This document shows positions 6,712 through 47,824 of a stretch of 58,070 nucleotides of DNA, piece by piece. The stretch's first letter is position 1, and the number at the start of each line of letters is the position of its first letter. Below the pieces are notes generated by a model. That model was not told where the DNA came from. It made no database searches and saw nothing but the letters and a program-made list of their open reading frames with translations. Made by a program: the position numbers and the translations under genes. This DNA comes from Burkholderiales bacterium (GTDB lineage: Bacteria > Pseudomonadota > Gammaproteobacteria > Burkholderiales > Ga0077523): contig JALHMS010000029.1 of the NCBI GenBank assembly GCA_022843925.1, positions 1 through 58,070 of the forward strand. Reading direction: 5' to 3'.

Positions 6712-7195
6712 AGGGCGCCTGCGCCGGGTGGTGCGCGGGAAGCATCAACAAGGGGAGGGCCTCGCATGGAGGCGCCACCCGGTTCGAGAACGGGCGAGCT
6801 TCTGTAGGAGCGGGCCATGCCCGCGAAGGCGATCGTTCCGGTTGAAACGTTTCACGGCATTCACCGCTTTCGCGGCCATGGGCCGCTCCTACAGGGGCGG
6901 TGGACACGCCACCTGCCTGGGAATGGGCGAGCTTCTGTAGGAGCGGGCCATGCCCGCGAAGGCGATGGTTCCGGGTGGAGTGCATCCGCGGCACCGACCG
7001 CTTTCGGGGCCATGGGCCCCTCCTACAAGGCCCCCCGTGATGCACCACCCACCGCTGGAATGGGCCGCGCTTTCTGTAGGAGCGGGCCATGCCCGCGAGA
7101 GCGATCGTTCCGGGTGAGGCGTTTCCTTGCATCGACCGCTTTCGCGGCCATGGGCCGCTCCTACAAGGCCATGGGCCCCTCCTACAACGGCCGCG
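6712..7195. repeat. Non-coding spacer with three REP pairs
   Basis: No gene is supported in this stretch. A relic of the ACAAGGGG palindrome (6747-6763) is followed by three REP pairs at 6804-6892, 6937-7026 and 7076-7164, and by one extra right arm at 7168-7185. All three left arms are of the GCGGGC-CAT-GCCCGC type. The right arms are GCGGCC/GGCCGC, GGGGCC/GGCCCC and GCGGCC/GGCCGC, and the extra arm is GGGGCC/GGCCCC. The element lengths are 89-90 bp with 40-45 nt between arms. The stretch lies between the ends of pdxH and the isomerase operon, a typical convergent 3' location for REPs. Confidence 0.85.
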
Positions 7196-8032
7196 CTACT
7201 CCGCCTCGATCCGATCCCATAACGCCCGGATCATGTCCTTCATCATCAGCGCCTCCTGCCAGCGGTCGGACAGCTCGTAGCCGTCCGCGCCGGTGATCGC
7301 GTACTCCTTAGGGCCCAGTTCGCAGAGGAACGTGAAGGTGGCGTCCGGCGGCGCGCGGCGGCGCCAGCTGCGGAGGCCGTACTCCCACCATTGCATGAAG
7401 AGATCTACCCAGTGCTGCATGGTCGGGAAGCTGATCTGCACCTGGATCTGCTCGCGGCTCGCGACGCGCCCGTGGAAGCCCCAGCAGTGGTCGAGGACGC
7501 GGTGCATGAGCGCGTGGTTCTCGTCCGACACCGGATACCAGAACTCGCGGCCGACGAGGTAGTGCGAGAGGTCGCCCGTGAGCCGCAGATCGGGAAAGCA
7601 GTCGAGCAGTCGCAGCGTGAAGAAGAGGTCCGTCGTCATGCGGTCGCGGTGCGTCTCGATGTGCACCGGTACCTTCGCGTCGTGGGCGAGGCGCCGCCAG
7701 CCCTCGATGTACGGGATGCAGTCCTCGAGCGAGTACGGACGCACGTCGGGTTGCAGGTTCACGTGGTCCGCGCCGAACTCCGCGACGTACTCGAGCGTGG
7801 TCTTCAGATCGTCGACCGTCTTCGGATAGCACTGGGCCTGCCAGCTCATTCCGTGGGCACGCAGGAAGCTGGTGACTTCCTTCACGAAATCGCGCTCGAT
7901 GAACCGCACGCCGCACCCGTCGAAGCCGGCGTCGCGGATCATCGCCAGCTTCTCGTCGAGCGACCATTCGAGGCCGTCGGGACGGCGCCGCTCCATGGCC
8001 CACAGCGACTGGTAGATCAGCAGCTTCTGCAT
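7196..8032 (-). CDS. Sugar phosphate isomerase/epimerase-like TIM-barrel protein
   Basis: 278 aa, xylose-isomerase-like TIM barrel (AP endonuclease 2 superfamily). Candidate divalent-metal ligands are the Glu in VPVHIETHRDR, the Asp and His in LTGDLSHY, and the Glu in FLCELGP. DAGFDGCGVRFIE and GADHVNLQPD are typical barrel strands. The substrate cannot be read from sequence; family members isomerise or epimerise sugars, inositols or hydroxy-acids. It is the last gene of a five-gene operon, 23 bp after fghA, preceded by a GATCGCTCC stretch with a weak Shine-Dalgarno site. Its presence behind a dioxygenase suggests that it acts on the substrate or product of that enzyme. Confidence 0.75.
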   Translation of the reverse strand: MQKLLIYQSLWAMERRRPDGLEWSLDEKLAMIRDAGFDGCGVRFIERDFVKEVTSFLRAHGMSWQAQCYPKTVDDLKTTLEYVAEFGADHVNLQPDVRPYSLEDCIPYIEGWRRLAHDAKVPVHIETHRDRMTTDLFFTLRLLDCFPDLRLTGDLSHYLVGREFWYPVSDENHALMHRVLDHCWGFHGRVASREQIQVQISFPTMQHWVDLFMQWWEYGLRSWRRRAPPDATFTFLCELGPKEYAITGADGYELSDRWQEALMMKDMIRALWDRIEAE

Positions 8033-8055
8033 GGAGCGATCCTCCGGTGAACGAA

Positions 8056-8897
8056 CTACGCGCAGAGGGTCTGCGCGTGATGCCGCAGGTGGTCTTCCAC
8101 GAACGTCGCGATGAAGAAGTAGCCGTGGTCGTACCCGCCGTGGCGGCGCAGCGTGAGGCTCTGACCCGATGCGGCGCACGCTGCCTCGAACGCCTCCGGG
8201 TGCAGTTGCTCCACGAGGAATTTGTCCGCGAGGCCCTGATCGACGAGGATGCGGCCGCTGAACGGGCGTTCCCGCACGAGAACGGTCGCGTCGTACCGGG
8301 ACCACGGCTGCGAGTCGTCACCCAGATAGCCGCCGAACGCCTTCCGTCCCCACGGGCACTGCGTCGGCGCGCAGATCGGCGCGAAGGCCGACACCGACCG
8401 GTAGAGGTCGGGGTTGCGCAGTGCGCAGACCAGCGCGCCATGCCCGCCCATCGAGTGCCCGAAGATGCCCTGCCGATCGATGTCAGCAGGGAAGTTCGCC
8501 GCGATGATCGCCGGCAGTTCGCGCGTCACGTGGCTGTGCATGCGGTAGTGCGTCGACCAGGGCGCCGCGGTCGCATCGACGTAGAAGCCCGCACCGACGC
8601 CGAAGTCCCAGGCGTCGGACTCGCCGGGGATGTTCGCGCCGCGCGGGCTGGTGTCCGGGCACACGAGCATCAAGCCGAGCTCCGCCGCGACCCGCTGCGC
8701 GCCGGCCTTGATCGGGAAGGTCTCCTCGGTGCAGGTGAGGCCCGCGAGGTAGACCAGCACGGGCACGGGTCCGGACCGCGCCTGCGGCGGCTGGAACACC
8801 GCGAAGCGCATGTCGAGCCCGATCTCCGCGGAGGGGTGCGAGTAGTAGCCCTGCACCCCGCCGAAGCAGCGATGCTCCGAGATCACCTTCATCGTCA

Positions 8898-8898
<1 letters not shown>
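8056..8898 (-). CDS. fghA: S-formylglutathione hydrolase
   Basis: Serine esterase of the glutathione-dependent formaldehyde pathway; it hydrolyses S-formylglutathione to formate and glutathione. 280 aa, usual length. The family pattern is complete: LVYLAGLTCTEETF (oxyanion region), PDTSPRGANIPGE, the nucleophile elbow GHSMGGHGAL (Ser149), ILVDQGLADKFL with the acid and GYDHGYFFIATF with the catalytic His. The ATG at 8898 overlaps the frmA stop (TGATG), so the two are translationally coupled; a second in-frame ATG two codons later is possible. Position and coupling leave little doubt about the role. Confidence 0.95.
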
Positions 8899-10010
<1,112 letters not shown>

Positions 10011-10024
10011 GGTGGGCTCCTCGG

Positions 10025-10861
10025 TCAGGAAATGCGGCGTTTCAGTTCGGGCGGATTCGTGGACTTCTCGCGGAACTCGTCTGCAGAGCCGGCGAACCTC
10101 ACGCCGGCGCGCTTGATGGCGCCATTGTCGACCTTCTCGATGGGGGTGTAGAAGGGGTGATGGTGCTCGAGGTACGGGTTGTTGCGCGCCGCGTTGTAGC
10201 AGTGGAGCACCGTCCAGCGGCGATTCTGCGAGCGGTTCTGGTCGGACCGGTGCAGCACGTTGCTGTGGAAGAAGAGGCCGTCGCCGGGCTCCATCTCCGC
10301 GAACTCGATGGGCATGCGCTTCAGGATCTCTTCGACGCGCTTCGGATCCGCACCCACCTGCTCGCCCGGCAGCACGCCGTGCTCGATGCGGCCGCAGTGG
10401 TGGGACCCCTTCACGACCTGCAGGCAGCCGTTCTCGCGGGTGCTGCGGTCCAGCGCGACCATCACGCTCGCCATGTAGGGGAACACGCAGCCGTTGTGGT
10501 ACCAGTAACCGTAATCCTGGTGCCATTCCCACGCGCCGCCCTCGAGGGGTTCCTTCGCGGTGAGCTTCGAGTGGTAGTGGTACACCTCGCCACCCAGGAG
10601 GTCCTCCATGGTGTCGACCACGCGGTGCGATCGAGCGGCGAGACCGTACACGCTGTCGCCGGGATGGTTCCACGTCGCCATGCGCGTGGCCTTGCCGGAC
10701 GCGTCGTTCCGGTTGTACAGCCGGCTGCGCATGGATTCGTCGTTCTCGATGGCCGTGCGCAGGATGGCGATCTCCTCGTCGTCGAAGAGCTTGCGCACCA
10801 TCACGTAGCCGTCGCGTTCGTAGTCCGCGCGCTGCTGCGGGGTGAGGATGGATCCGGTCAT
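10025..10861 (-). CDS. Phytanoyl-CoA dioxygenase (PhyH) family Fe(II)/2-oxoglutarate oxygenase
   Basis: 278 aa with the double-stranded beta-helix fold of PhyH-type oxygenases. The iron-binding facial triad is visible: His114 and Asp116 in [10 protein letters not shown] and His204 in [10 protein letters not shown], with Arg215 eleven residues further on as the expected 2-oxoglutarate anchor, the same spacing as in human PhyH. Other supports are the N-terminal [15 protein letters not shown] and [18 protein letters not shown]. No signal peptide. Family members hydroxylate varied small molecules; hydroxylation of an N-, O- or S-methyl group would release formaldehyde. It sits 41 bp after the FadR-type regulator and 14 bp before frmA, so formaldehyde release is the simplest reading, but that is inference. 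Confidence 0.85.
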
Positions 10862-10902
10862 GGGGCCTCCGTCGTTCGTGTTGTCGTGTCCGGCGCGGGA
10901 CG

Positions 10903-11625
10903 TCAATGCGCGCCGGCAGTGGTGGCAAGGCGCGCCGCGGCGCCCGCCAGATGGGCGAGCACCGCCGCACGGGCGTCTTCCGGGGCGCGGCGGCGGATCG
11001 CGTCGACGATCCGCGCGTGCTCGGCGCGGACCTCTGCCTCGAAGGCGGGGGAACGCGCCTCGTTCGTGTGGGTGATATGGATGGCGCCCCGCAGATACTG
11101 TCCGAGAAACGACCACGTGGAGCACAGAAGCCGGTTGCCCGACGCGTCCGCGATGGCCTGGTGGAACGCGAGGTCCTCCTCGACCCCGTCGGACCCCCGC
11201 GAGGCGGCGTCATCGACGGCTCTCAAAGCGGACTGCACGGCGGCCATCGCGCTGCGGGTCCGACGCACAGCCGCGAGTGCCGCGATCTCGGTCTCCAGGG
11301 CGCGGCGCAACTCGTAGAGCTCCTCCAGCGTGGTGCTGGATTCATGGACCTTCGGATCCAGTCGCAGCGGAGTGAGTGGTCTGCCCTCGGGCACGAAGAG
11401 TCCCGACCCTTGCAACGAGACGACGAGGCCCTCGGACTTCAATCGGGAGACGGCCTCGCGCACCACGGCCCGGCTGACGCCGAAACCTTCGGCCAGCGCC
11501 GTCTCGGTGGGCAGGCGGGCGCCGGCGGGGAAGCGCTGCTCGGTGATCGCCGTGCGCAGCTCGTCTGCGACGCGCTCGGAGAGGCGTTGACCGCGGCCGA
11601 TGAACGGGAGGTCTGAAGCTTTCAT
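10903..11625 (-). CDS. GntR-family transcriptional regulator, FadR subfamily
   Basis: 240 aa. The N-terminal winged helix (about residues 14-78) has [47 protein letters not shown] and the wing GSGLFV. The C-terminal FCD ligand domain is all-helical, with [23 protein letters not shown] and EHARIVDAI, containing the metal-binding Asp/His pattern usual in FCD domains. It is the first gene of the operon and the likely sensor of the pathway substrate. The ATG at 11625 has no Shine-Dalgarno site, and the predicted promoter places the transcript start only a few nt upstream, so translation may be leaderless. A FadR-type operator overlaps the -35 element. Confidence 0.9.
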
Positions 11626-11635
11626 GCGCCGGATG

Positions 11636-11663
11636 CTATCAGACCCGGTCGGTTGTCTGACAA
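11636..11663 (-). promoter_or_regulatory. Promoter of the fadR-type/phyH/frmA/fghA operon
   Basis: Read on the minus strand: -35 TTGTCA (11663-11658), 16-nt spacer, -10 TGATAG (11641-11636). The predicted start point lies about 4-7 nt before the ATG at 11625. There is no other gene between, so this is the natural promoter of the five-gene operon. Confidence 0.55.
11653..11663. promoter_or_regulatory. FadR-type operator TTGTCTGACAA
   Basis: Perfect 11-bp palindrome with a central T, matching the TNGTNNNACNA pattern bound by FadR-subfamily GntR regulators (for example the LldR and PdhR sites). It covers the -35 element of the operon promoter, so binding would repress the regulator's own operon, with release by a ligand. 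Confidence 0.6.
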
Positions 11664-12026
11664 CTTTGCCGGGAGGTCTGGCGCCCCGGGCCCGCGGTTG
11701 GGAGCTTGCGTAGAGCACGAACAAGGGAAGGGCCCGTTGCATCCCCCCATGGATACGCAGCGCACGGTGGATCTGGTCCGGTAGGAGGGGCCCTTGGCCG
11801 TTGTAGGAGCGGGCCATGCCCGCGAAAGCGTTGGATGCAAGAAAGCGTGTCGACCCAAACCATCGCTTTCGCGGGCATGGCCCGGTCCTACAGAAGCTCG
11901 CCGACTGCCATGGAACGTGGCATATCCACCACCCCCTGTAGGAGGGGCCCATGGCCCCGAAAGCGGTGAGTGCGAGGAGACACCTGGACCGGAACCATCG
12001 CTTTCGCGGGCATGGCCCGCTCCTAC
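11664..12026. repeat. Non-coding spacer with two REP pairs
   Basis: No gene is supported from 11664 to 12586. This first part holds a palindrome relic (AACAAGGG and CCCGTT, about 11719-11741), a lone degenerate left arm at 11781, and two REP pairs at 11803-11891 (both arms GCGGGC/GCCCGC type, right arm with one mismatch) and 11938-12026 (left GGGGCC/GGCCCC, right GCGGGC/GCCCGC). Confidence 0.82.
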
Positions 12027-12563
12027 AGGAGCGTGACCATTCCCACGGCGACTGGCGCATCCACCGGGGGATCTACAAGGGGTCCTCCCCTTGTTGGTAC
12101 GACGTGCGGCCGAGCCGCCGCGGGCCTCCGGCCCGAGAGGCGGGCATGGCCCGCTCCTACAGGAGCGTGACCATTTCCACGGCGATTGGCGCATCCACGG
12201 GGGATCTACAAGGGGTCCTCCCCTTGTTGGTACGACGTGCGGCCGAGCCGCCGCGGGCCTCCGGCCCGAGAGGCGGGCATGGCCCGCTCCTACAGGAGCG
12301 TGACCATTCCCACGGCGACTGGCGCATCCACGGGGGATCTACATGGGGTCCTCCCCTTGTTGGTACGACGTGCGGCCGAGCCGCCGCGGGCCTCCGGCCC
12401 GAGAGGCGGGCATGGCCCGCTACTACAGGAATCACGCCCGCTTCAACGGTGAGTAGCGCATCCACGGGGGGATCTACAAGGGGTCCTCCCCTTGTTGGTA
12501 CGACCTGCGGCCGAGCCGCCGCGGGCGTCCGGCCCGAGAGGCGGCCATAGGCCCCTCCCACCA
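12027..12563. repeat. Tandem array of four 133-134-bp units
   Basis: Units begin at 12027, 12161, 12294 and 12427. The first three are nearly identical; the fourth has diverged at its start and end. Each unit contains a palindrome (ACAAGGGG then CCCCTTGT around TCCT), a G+C-rich stretch with its own inverted repeat (GCCTCCGGCCCGAGAGGC region), and a right REP arm of the GCGGGC/GCCCGC type ending GCTCCTAC; the fourth unit's arm has mutated. No left arm is present, so the unit differs from the paired elements. Open frames across the array follow the repeats and are not genes. Confidence 0.88.
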
Positions 12564-12586
12564 GGGCGTCGCCGCTTCGGTACGCG

Positions 12587-13351
12587 TCACCCCAACGCGT
12601 CGCGCAATCCGTCCAGGCTCGCGTGGTGCGTGAGATCGCTGCCCAGGGGCGTCACCGTCACCCACCCTTGCAATGCCGCGCCCACGTCGGTCGCCGGGTC
12701 GAGCCGGCCCCGGTCATGCCCGAAGCTCAGCCACGCGTAGGGGAACTGGCGCGGGTCGATCCTTTCGCTCACGTCGATCCACATGCGGTCCCAGCGACCC
12801 TGCGGTACGACGCGCACGCCCTTCACCTCGGTCGGCGCGACGTCGGGGATGTTGACGTTGTGGCACACGCCCGGCGGTACCGGTGCGGCCATCAGGCGCC
12901 GGATGAGATCCGGGCATACGGCTTCCGCGGTGTCCCAGCGCAGTTCGCGGCCGGGGTTGAAGCAGAGGCTGATCGCGAGGCCCCGGATCCCGGACTGCGC
13001 GGCCTGCATCGCACCGGCGACCGTGCCGGAGTACGTGATGTCGTCGCCCACGTTGTGGCCACGGTTCACGCCCGAGAGCACGAGCGTCGGCGGGTGATCC
13101 TTCATGAGGCTGCGCAGCGCGACGACCACGCAGTCGGTGGGTGAGCCCTTCACCAGCGAGAACCGCTTCTCCTCGAGCTGTCGCACCCGCACCGGCTCAC
13201 CCACGGTGACGGAGCGGCTGGCACCGGAGCGTTCGAAATCCGGGGCGACGATCCAGACGTCGTCGGAGATCGCGCGGGCGACGCGCTCCATGGCGACCAG
13301 GCCGGGGGCGTAGATTCCGTCGTCGTTCGTGATGAGGATGCGGAGGGACAT
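12587..13351 (-). CDS. surE: 5'/3'-nucleotidase SurE
   Basis: Divalent-metal-dependent nucleoside 5'- and 3'-monophosphatase, also active on short polyphosphate, linked to stationary-phase survival. 254 aa, almost the same as E. coli. The hallmark N-terminus is [15 protein letters not shown] with metal ligands Asp10 and Asp11, followed by [32 protein letters not shown] and [14 protein letters not shown]. The ATG at 13351 ([12 protein letters not shown]) is the family start. In many proteobacteria surE precedes pcm and nlpD; that context is absent here. It is divergent from the thiolase at 13568 across a 216-bp gap. Confidence 0.95.
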
Positions 13352-46006: not shown

Positions 46007-47824
46007 GTGAAAAGATCCAATAGCTTTACGATGGCAGCCATCGGAGCCGGAGTCGCAGCAGCCATGCTGTCGACCGCCGTTTTCGCTGGTGATGTCACGG
46101 CCGATCGGCTGATCAACAGCGAGCGCGAGCCGGGCAACTGGCTCAACCACCATGGCAACCTGGAGGCCCATCGTTTCTCGGGGCTGGACCAGATCAACAC
46201 GAAGAACGTCAAGAAGCTGAAGGTCGCCTTCACCTGGGCGATGGGCGGCACGCAGGGCGGCGGCAAGGAAATCATCAAGTGGCCCTTCGCCGGTCTGGAA
46301 GGCACGCCGGTTGCCGAGAATGGCTTCCTCTACATCACCACGGGCTGGGGTGTGGTGACGAAGCTCGATACGCGCGGCGGTACGCCCCGGATGGTGTGGC
46401 AGTACAACCCGGCGCCCGATCCCGACTACGCGACGACGGTGGCCTGCTGCGGCATCAACAACCGCGGTGCGGTACTCGCCGGCAACATGGTGATCTCGCC
46501 CGTCATCGACGGCCGGATTATCGCGCTCAACAAGACCGACGGCACGAAGATCTGGGAAGCGCAGATCGCCGATCCCGGCAAGAGCGAAACCATCACGGGC
46601 GCTCCGCTGATCGTCAAGGACATGGTCGTCACCGGCATGGCGGGCGCCGAGTACGGCGTGCGCGGCTGGATCGAGGCCGTCGACATCAAGACCGGCAAGC
46701 GCCGGTGGCGCACCTACACGATCCCGGCGCCCGGCGAACCCGGCAGCGAGACGTGGAAGGACAAGCACGGCGCCTGGAAGACGGGCGGCGGCACGACCTG
46801 GGTCACCGGTTCGTACGATCCGGAGCTGAACCTCATCGTGTGGGGCACGGCCAACCCGGGTCCGGACTGGGACAACGCCTATCGTCCCGGCGACAACCTG
46901 TGGACCGATTCGACGATCGCCCTGGATGCCGACACCGGCAAGATCAAGTGGGGCTTCCAGCACACGCCGAACGATCCGTACGACTACGACTCGATCAACG
47001 AGAACACCTTCGTCGATACGCAGATCAACGGTGCGTTCCGTCGTGCGACGCTGCACGCGAACCGCAACGGCTACGCGTATGCCCTCGATCGCAAGACGGG
47101 CGAGCCGCTGTGGTGCACGCAGTTCGTGCACGAGTTGAACTGGTCGGGTGGCCTGGACGCCAAGTGCAAGCCGAAGTCCTACGACCCGAAGAAGGATGTG
47201 CAGACGTACATGCCGGGCACGGCAGCCCAGCGTGGTACCGCGACCAAGGGTCGGGGCACCATCGAAGGCGTGCTGAAGCCGGGTCACATGGGAGGCAAGA
47301 ACTGGCCGCCCACGTCCTACAGCCCGCAGACCAACATGTACTACATCCCGACGATCGACGGCTGCAACAAGGCGTTTGCCGAAGTGGCCGAGCCGGGGGC
47401 GTTCAAGCATCGCCAGTTGTTCCTGGGCGGTGCGCCGTTCTCGACGTTCGAGGATCAGGAATGCGGCCGTATCTGGGGTTCGATCACGGCGATCGATGTG
47501 GCGACCGGCAAGGTGACGAAGAAGCACACCACCAAGCACCCGCAACTGGGTGGCCTGCTGTCCACGGCTGGTGGTCTCGTGTTCGCCGGCTATGCTGAAG
47601 GCCAGGTCGTGGCGCTGGATGCCGAAACCCTCGAAGAGCTGTGGAAGTTCGAGACGGGGTCTGCCATCAATGCCCCGCCCATGAGCTACCTCGCCGACGG
47701 CAAGCAATACGTCGCCATCGAAGTCGGTCTGGGCGGCGCCTGGCCCCAGTGGTTCGTCAGCGCCACGCCGGAGCTGAAGTCCCAGGTGCCCAGCAACATG
47801 CTGTACGTGTTCTCGCTCGACTAA
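46007..47824 (+). CDS. PQQ-dependent methanol/ethanol-family dehydrogenase, lanthanide type (XoxF-like)
   Basis: 605 aa periplasmic quinoprotein. A signal peptide of about 27 residues ends VFA-GD. The eight-bladed propeller carries the family marks: the vicinal disulfide Cys147-Cys148 (VACCGINNRGA), tryptophan-docking repeats such as ALDADTGKIKWGF and AIDVATGKV, and the catalytic Asp326 in NDPYDYDSINEN. Asp328, two residues on, is the extra carboxylate that marks lanthanide-binding XoxF/ExaF/PedH enzymes; calcium MxaF has Ala or Ser there. The enzyme oxidises a primary alcohol and passes electrons to a c-type cytochrome, here encoded 122 bp downstream. The GTG has AGGGAGGAG close upstream. 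XoxJ and PQQ synthesis genes are not in the window, so methanol as substrate is likely but not certain. Confidence 0.9.
   Translation: MKRSNSFTMAAIGAGVAAAMLSTAVFAGDVTADRLINSEREPGNWLNHHGNLEAHRFSGLDQINTKNVKKLKVAFTWAMGGTQGGGKEIIKWPFAGLEGTPVAENGFLYITTGWGVVTKLDTRGGTPRMVWQYNPAPDPDYATTVACCGINNRGAVLAGNMVISPVIDGRIIALNKTDGTKIWEAQIADPGKSETITGAPLIVKDMVVTGMAGAEYGVRGWIEAVDIKTGKRRWRTYTIPAPGEPGSETWKDKHGAWKTGGGTTWVTGSYDPELNLIVWGTANPGPDWDNAYRPGDNLWTDSTIALDADTGKIKWGFQHTPNDPYDYDSINENTFVDTQINGAFRRATLHANRNGYAYALDRKTGEPLWCTQFVHELNWSGGLDAKCKPKSYDPKKDVQTYMPGTAAQRGTATKGRGTIEGVLKPGHMGGKNWPPTSYSPQTNMYYIPTIDGCNKAFAEVAEPGAFKHRQLFLGGAPFSTFEDQECGRIWGSITAIDVATGKVTKKHTTKHPQLGGLLSTAGGLVFAGYAEGQVVALDAETLEELWKFETGSAINAPPMSYLADGKQYVAIEVGLGGAWPQWFVSATPELKSQVPSNMLYVFSLD

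Follow-up and report, generated by a model that had tools for sequence, protein, structure and literature searches.

A FadR-type regulator, PhyH-family dioxygenases and formaldehyde oxidation genes in a proposed oxidative demethylation regulon of a Burkholderiales bacterium

The 58,070-nucleotide stretch of DNA analysed here (the window; contig JALHMS010000029.1 of assembly GCA_022843925.1, from a Burkholderiales bacterium of the lineage Ga0077523) carries an operon of five co-directional genes (Table 1). In the order of transcription, they encode a FadR-type regulator, a PhyH-family dioxygenase (PhyH1), the formaldehyde oxidation enzymes FrmA and FghA, and an isomerase-like protein (Iso). The intergenic gaps of 41, 14, -1 and 23 bp given in a preliminary description of this DNA were borne out by gene calling. 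The coordinates given there, 10025-11663, cover the regulator and PhyH1; the operon extends over 7196-11625 on the minus strand and includes three more genes. The end at 11663 lies 38 bases upstream of the ATG of the regulator, a stretch that includes most of a palindrome. The iron-binding triad of PhyH1 (His114, Asp116, His204), noticed earlier, is complete and invariant in 39 of 39 aligned sequences, that of the window included. FrmA and FghA both score above their curated cut-offs, so that the pair for glutathione-dependent formaldehyde oxidation is complete. Consensus scans of 6900-12000 for promoters and terminators found none.

Table 1. Features at and around the operon; "REP-like" is a descriptive name coined in this analysis for the flanking repeats
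Feature	Position	Strand	Remarks
GntR/FadR-subfamily regulator	10903-11625	-	ATG at 11625; GntR 74 bits, FCD 89.1 bits
PhyH1, PhyH-family Fe(II)/2-oxoglutarate dioxygenase	10025-10861	-	PF05721 124.9 bits, cut-off 22
FrmA, S-(hydroxymethyl)glutathione dehydrogenase	8898-10010	-	TIGR02818 611.6 bits, cut-off 543.95
FghA, S-formylglutathione hydrolase	8056-8898	-	TIGR02821 464.6 bits, cut-off 281.7
Iso, isomerase-like TIM-barrel protein	7196-8032	-	AP_endonuc_2 PF01261 28.8 bits, under cut-off 31.1
Palindrome GTTGTCWGACAAC, probable operator of the FadR-type regulator	11652-11664	no strand	near edge 27 nt upstream of the regulator ATG
REP-like repeat array upstream of the operon, core GTAGGAGCGGGCCATGCCCGC	11778-12598		four copies of 133 nt, two of 129 nt, two of 22 nt
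REP-like repeats just downstream of the operon, core GTAGGAGCGGGCCATGCCCGC	6933-7191		copies of 42 and 45 nt

Among 12 genomes of the same genus, the five-gene order is present just in the genome of the window (G000) and in the near-identical G006; two of the 12 are incomplete assemblies (G004 at 79%, G011 at 64%). The regulator-PhyH1 pair occurs without frmA in G005 (locus L038), and the frmA-fghA-Iso block occurs without PhyH1 in G001, G002, G007, G008 and G010, in the last of which it is cut by a contig end. PhyH1 used as bait revealed no conserved operon, and Iso and FrmA were used as baits instead. These searches showed that, at 10 loci in 9 genomes from four other families (f3, f19, f24, f39), frmA is immediately preceded by a co-directional gene for another PhyH (PhyH-A), with a gap of 11-252 bp. 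Iso comes right after frmA or fghA or, at L148 and L172, a few genes later, and several of these loci continue with one more PhyH gene and a TRAP transporter. The preliminary description had proposed to look for a conserved neighbourhood of the operon, and for the frmA-fghA-Iso block such a neighbourhood exists in the four families, behind a PhyH other than the one in the window. A branch with support 97/96 separates PhyH1 from the Iso-linked PhyHs in a PhyH tree of 35 rows, and PhyH-A and PhyH-B of the window's own genome, encoded on contig C14, group with the Iso-linked PhyHs. PhyH1 thus stands in the slot before frmA that is held elsewhere by PhyH-A. As a control, FrmA genes were collected from 150 genomes of the order (TIGR02818, E<=1e-140), which gave 67 genes in 65 genomes. 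A PhyH, taken from the strongest 150 PhyH matches, lies within 5 kb of 9 of the 12 Iso-linked FrmA genes and of 0 of the 55 others (Fisher 5e-9, which overstates independence since the Iso-linked genomes are related); the 12 include that of G009, whose Iso is on another contig. At two of the Iso loci (L168 and L169, both in G386), the FghA gene between FrmA and Iso is split over three gene calls.

The PhyH-A cluster on contig C14 consists of a cyclase-family gene, PhyH-A, an IclR-type regulator, a gluconolactonase-like gene, PhyH-B and a TRAP transporter. The cyclase, the gluconolactonase-like protein, PhyH-B and the TRAP binding protein were named by Pfam on homologues, and IclR, DctQ and DctM by eye. 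The surrounding region (L152, L153) is rich in PhyH and catabolic in character, with four unlike PhyH genes in ~28 kb (PhyH-A, PhyH-B and two others), an enolase-superfamily-like gene and GntR- and IclR-like regulators (names by eye) besides the TRAP transporter.

The regulator of the window has a GntR helix-turn-helix and an FCD domain, as is typical of the FadR subfamily of GntR. It does not qualify as the fatty-acid regulator FadR itself, for which it scores 32.5 bits with TIGR02812 (cut-off 249.2) and 35.7 bits with NF003444 (cut-off 189). At E<=1e-40 the regulator was found in 3 of 18 genomes searched (G000, G006 and G005), and in all three the palindrome GTTGTCTGACAAC lies 27 nt before its gene. 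The operator consensus reported for the FadR subfamily is TKGT/ACMA with 3 nt between GT and AC (PMC4494728), and the palindrome of the window fits it. In the 5.57 Mb genome of the window, GTTGTCNGACAAC occurs at two sites (0 for the reversed-pattern control), one in the promoter of the regulator gene and the other on contig C14, beginning 67 nt upstream of the PhyH-A start. G006 has the same two sites, one of them 66 nt before PhyH-A (reversed control 0), and G005 has that of the regulator gene only (reversed control 1). One palindrome each, with a C/G centre, is found in G010 and G011, with no PhyH-A gene in the surrounding 4.5 kb, and none was found in the other 13 of the 18 genomes, among which G034 has one match to the reversed pattern. 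When nine PhyH-A promoters of the genus were aligned, the palindrome was present only in G000 and G006, the two species with the fused operon. This coincidence of the palindrome at both the regulator gene and PhyH-A in just the two fused species suggests that the regulator very probably controls the operon and the PhyH-A cluster alike, with the palindrome as its predicted operator. Another GntR protein could also be the user of the palindrome.

Iso has no match to an NCBIfam model at E<=0.001 and no relative among PDB sequences, whether searched as a single sequence or as a 17-row profile. Among 17 homologues, residues E126, D154, H157 and E238 are invariant and H187 is nearly so (Gln in L185); they resemble the Glu-Asp-His-Glu metal site of isomerase/epimerase TIM barrels, for whose four residues E126, D154, H187 and E238 would be the candidates. 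A set of 56 Iso loci was assembled from the order (28 from the search and 1 further), from a search of the phylum (17) and from 96 plasmid records (10, picked by hand); a weak match in G047 (24% identity, E 1e-6) was not taken up. An oxygenase gene is present in the Iso cluster at 46 of the 56 loci, or at 36 of 46 when the hand-picked plasmids are set aside. Within 6 kb of Iso, PhyH is found at 15 loci and a membrane di-iron hydroxylase/desaturase-like gene at 29; at L157 the di-iron gene, annotated as a sterol desaturase, lies slightly beyond this distance. At L195 the neighbours are a P450, a 2Fe-2S ferredoxin (Fer2) and a reductase. No oxygenase was found at 10 of the 56 loci, four of which (L143, L145, L162, L166) end at a contig edge; another, L192, where Iso is 38% identical, has a sulfotransferase-type neighbour. 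Family scans confirmed FA_hydroxylase and a MocE-family ferredoxin with an RbsB/MglB-like binding protein (L156), FA_desaturase (L185) and p450 with Fer2 (L195), and the remaining oxygenase labels come from BLAST or HMM similarity to such seeds. In an Iso tree of 45 rows, Iso groups by oxygenase type, with 7 changes over all groups against a shuffled mean of 22.1. The tree was built without six loci that lack a full-length called Iso (L148, L157, L172, L181, L193, L196), the four at contig edges and the second G386 copy (L169). FghA is found within 6 kb of Iso at 14 of the 56 loci and FrmA at 23: 13 of the 15 PhyH loci, 3 of the 30 di-iron loci (L157, L158 and L194, all rhizobial plasmids) and 7 of the 10 without an oxygenase. 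The link to formaldehyde genes is therefore strong for the PhyH sets and weak for the di-iron sets.

Several rhizobial-type Iso loci (L156, L158, L159, L180, L193, L196; four on plasmids) have, with small losses, a common layout of LacI regulator, di-iron gene, MocE, sugar-binding protein, MocF and Iso. The sugar-type binding protein of L159 is annotated in its record as rhizopine-binding. In a Shinella locus, an RbsB/MglB-like binding protein and a LacI regulator accompany Iso, which is a sugar-type setting. Alphaproteobacterial-looking Iso homologues of 40-43% identity (L185, L186, L188-L191) stand directly behind a desaturase-type gene, and no MocE- or MocF-like gene was detected near Iso at these loci.

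The gene content, the conservation of the block, the differing oxygenases around Iso and the distribution of the palindrome are all read directly from the sequences. They are best accommodated if the operon is half of a regulon, under FadR-type control, in which a methylated, sugar-like and perhaps acidic compound is oxidatively demethylated, a reading that we consider probable, if not strongly so. In the scheme proposed here for the sensing, the substrate, the chemistry and the direction of change, the FadR-type protein would repress its own operon and the promoter of the PhyH-A cluster on the other contig, and a ligand, probably a carboxylate, would relieve this repression. The substrate would be taken up by the TRAP transporter of the PhyH-A cluster. 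PhyH1, PhyH-A or both would hydroxylate its methyl group with Fe(II), 2-oxoglutarate and O2, and the resulting hemiacetal would release formaldehyde and leave the demethylated compound. FrmA and FghA would convert the formaldehyde to formate via glutathione, and Iso would isomerise or epimerise the demethylated carbon skeleton. The PhyH-A-frmA-(fghA)-Iso order of the four other families would have been split in this genus, with frmA-fghA-Iso coming to lie, here, behind the regulator-PhyH1 pair. The preliminary description had proposed dedicated oxidative demethylation, with the isomerase-like protein acting on the carbon part and a FadR-type protein as the sensor; this general idea stands as the best reading, in which PhyH1 itself, the demethylase of that proposal, is a candidate for the role.

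A wider proposal is that Iso marks a so far unrecognised group of pathways by which methylated sugars, sugar acids or cyclitols are oxidatively demethylated. Iso would be constant and FrmA often present, and the oxygenase would be exchanged among Fe/2-oxoglutarate PhyH enzymes of two separate lineages, a membrane di-iron hydroxylase/desaturase with or without MocE/MocF, and P450. The pathway would have been split in this species and rejoined by a new operator site for the FadR-type regulator. This proposal is more tentative, and we place it just short of an even balance.

Several observations weigh against the demethylation regulon. PhyH1 orthologues outside the two fused species were taken as the best 80 loci from a scan of genome contigs (54-91% identity; 51 loci with at least 5 kb on both sides), and FrmA, FghA or Iso was found within 6 kb at 0 of these 80 (tblastn, E<=1e-12). 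Thus, the neighbourhood is lacking in relatives as far as PhyH1 is concerned, an outcome that the preliminary description itself had named as speaking against its proposal. The AlphaFold2 model of PhyH1 (pLDDT 91.5) has its top Foldseek matches in the trans-3/4-proline hydroxylase H11, GriE and EctD (23-30% identity in structural alignments), which are also the best PDB sequence matches. The nearest structures, as judged from this model, are thus C-H hydroxylases of small amino acids (proline, leucine, ectoine), and the structure of the demethylase PHYHD1 (3obz) comes at rank 45; therefore, the reaction of PhyH1 may be plain hydroxylation. frmA and fghA are each a single match in this genome (at E<=1e-140 and E<=1e-40, respectively), so that at these thresholds the sole copies would also serve general detoxification. 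Six loci show the frmA-fghA-Iso block without a detected oxygenase: L164 and those of five genomes of the genus, L139-L143, of which L143 is truncated by the contig end and L139 stops 1.6 kb past Iso. FrmA is absent within 6 kb at 27 of the 30 di-iron Iso loci, and demethylation by the di-iron sets is suggested by analogy to rhizopine catabolism. A shorter, 11-bp form of the palindrome, TTGTCNGACAA, is not enriched genome-wide (4 sites in G000 against 3 for the reversed control). For the fold of Iso, a single-sequence model reached a pLDDT of 55 and was set aside.

Much of this would also be expected if a general detoxification block had been placed by rearrangement, by chance or convenience, behind the regulator-PhyH1 pair, with PhyH1 hydroxylating an amino or organic acid without release of formaldehyde. 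The few fixed neighbours of PhyH1 orthologues, none of them near frmA, the nearest folds, the single copies of frmA and fghA and the existence of the pair without frmA in G005 all fit such a fusion, as do the REP-like repeats on both flanks, which may have helped the rearrangement that joined the two halves of the operon. However, a PhyH fills the slot before frmA in a total of five families, and with 7 PhyH among the matches listed for the 5.57 Mb genome, the arrival of a random PhyH in that slot is improbable; moreover, the second palindrome, at PhyH-A, is found in just the two fused species. We regard a fusion without functional meaning as unlikely. Formaldehyde might instead come from methanol, oxidized by a PQQ-dependent dehydrogenase encoded at 46064-47824 of the window, which scores above the cut-off of the PQQ methanol/ethanol family (TIGR03075, 528.8 bits against 480.05). 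This family is broad and not methanol-specific, the gene is ~35 kb distant, and such a source would leave Iso and PhyH unexplained, which makes it very improbable that FrmA and FghA are there for methanol oxidation.

Within the demethylation regulon itself, demethylation may be carried out by PhyH-A (or PhyH-B) on contig C14, with PhyH1 oxidizing the same compound, or a related one, in some other way. PhyH-A is the type of PhyH that accompanies frmA and Iso elsewhere, and it bears the palindrome here. The neighbours of PhyH1 orthologues are variable, never include the formaldehyde genes and in some loci are sugar-acid enzymes: an enzyme of this type lies within 6 kb at 11 of the 80 loci and at none of the other 69. 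An arabinonate/galactonate-dehydratase-like gene of the enolase superfamily is found at L031, L032 and L035-L037, and again, on the opposite strand and with 35-36% identity, at L063 and L065. L046 and L050 have L-arabinonate dehydratase (above the cut-off in L046) and a galactarate-dehydratase-like gene, and L-threonate-dehydrogenase-like genes occur at L066, with a binding-protein-dependent permease, and at L074, with two transketolase halves. Like the setting of Iso in the Shinella locus, these neighbours count in favour of a sugar-like substrate for the regulon as a whole. On the other hand, PhyH1 is co-directional with frmA and ends 14 bp before it, in the very place that PhyH-A holds elsewhere. 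This division of labour is a genuine possibility that we hold to be somewhat doubtful.

The one fixed context of PhyH1 was observed in L085-L105, mostly from the SAR116 cluster, where the orthologue overlaps tail-to-tail, by 4 or 11 bp, with a conserved gene of ~269 aa in 20 of 21 loci; in L089 the two are 4 bp apart. An amidase-like gene (named by eye) follows the ~269 aa gene.

Plants and algae commonly contain methylated sugars and cyclitols, and, to our knowledge, few bacterial routes for removing their methyl groups have been described. Pathways that join oxidative demethylation to the removal of formaldehyde have, as a type, been described before. Among the open-access literature matches listed, no description was found of the PhyH-FrmA-FghA-Iso set, of the exchange of oxygenases around Iso or of the FadR-type link, and those on 4-O-methylglucuronate, methylated cyclitols, methyl-sugar demethylation and demethylation clusters with PhyH or an isomerase do not describe this gene set. 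The company that Iso keeps with several unrelated oxygenases hints at a scarcely known route by which bacteria consume methylated sugars. A constant partner gene with a changing oxygenase offers a handle with which genomes can be searched for demethylation routes, and the palindrome common to both promoters points to the PhyH genes that are best studied side by side. If the proposal is true, catabolic O-demethylation of a growth substrate would be added to the roles of bacterial PhyH, a large and mostly unassigned family.

Four known systems invite comparison. The closest folds to PhyH1 are those of the amino-acid hydroxylases H11, GriE and EctD, a likeness in structure and sequence. Rhizopine is a methylated compound whose methyl group is removed by MocDEF. 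Its catabolism (rhizopine is 3-O-methyl-scyllo-inosamine) is described as involving mocDEF and mocC (PMC10107442). Rhizobial Iso homologues resemble this system in having a MocE-family ferredoxin (TIGR02377, 185 bits, L156), a MocF-like reductase, a LacI regulator and a sugar-type binding protein. The window differs in that its regulator is not MocR (NF052281, 30 bits, cut-off 650) and in having a PhyH where the rhizopine-type sets have a di-iron enzyme. The identity of Iso with rhizopine MocC was considered and is not supported: in a comparison made without a MocC sequence, no Iso was found among the called genes at six MocR loci, which also show no MocD or MocE. At one of these (L208), the isomerase-like gene is of the IolE type (TIGR04379, 347 bits).

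In marine Flavobacteriia, 6-O-methyl-D-galactose is reported to be demethylated by a P450, giving formaldehyde, with a zinc alcohol dehydrogenase gene nearby (PMC10033563). The oxygenase there is a P450, in contrast to the PhyH here, and the dehydrogenase, according to the accessible part of that report, does not act in formaldehyde detoxification, whereas FrmA and FghA form the glutathione pathway. The nearest precedent within the PhyH family is provided by bacterial FJS and human PHYHD1, described as 2-oxoglutarate-dependent 2'-O-methylnucleoside demethylases that release formaldehyde (PMC12709175). They share the PhyH family with PhyH1, and O-demethylation, reported there at the ribose methyl, is theirs; PhyH1 is nearer to H11, GriE and EctD than to PHYHD1. 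FJS came from a plasmid insert of ~1,200 bp, and the accessible part of the report names no FrmA, FghA or Iso partner for it (PMC12709175), such as PhyH1 has in the operon of the window.

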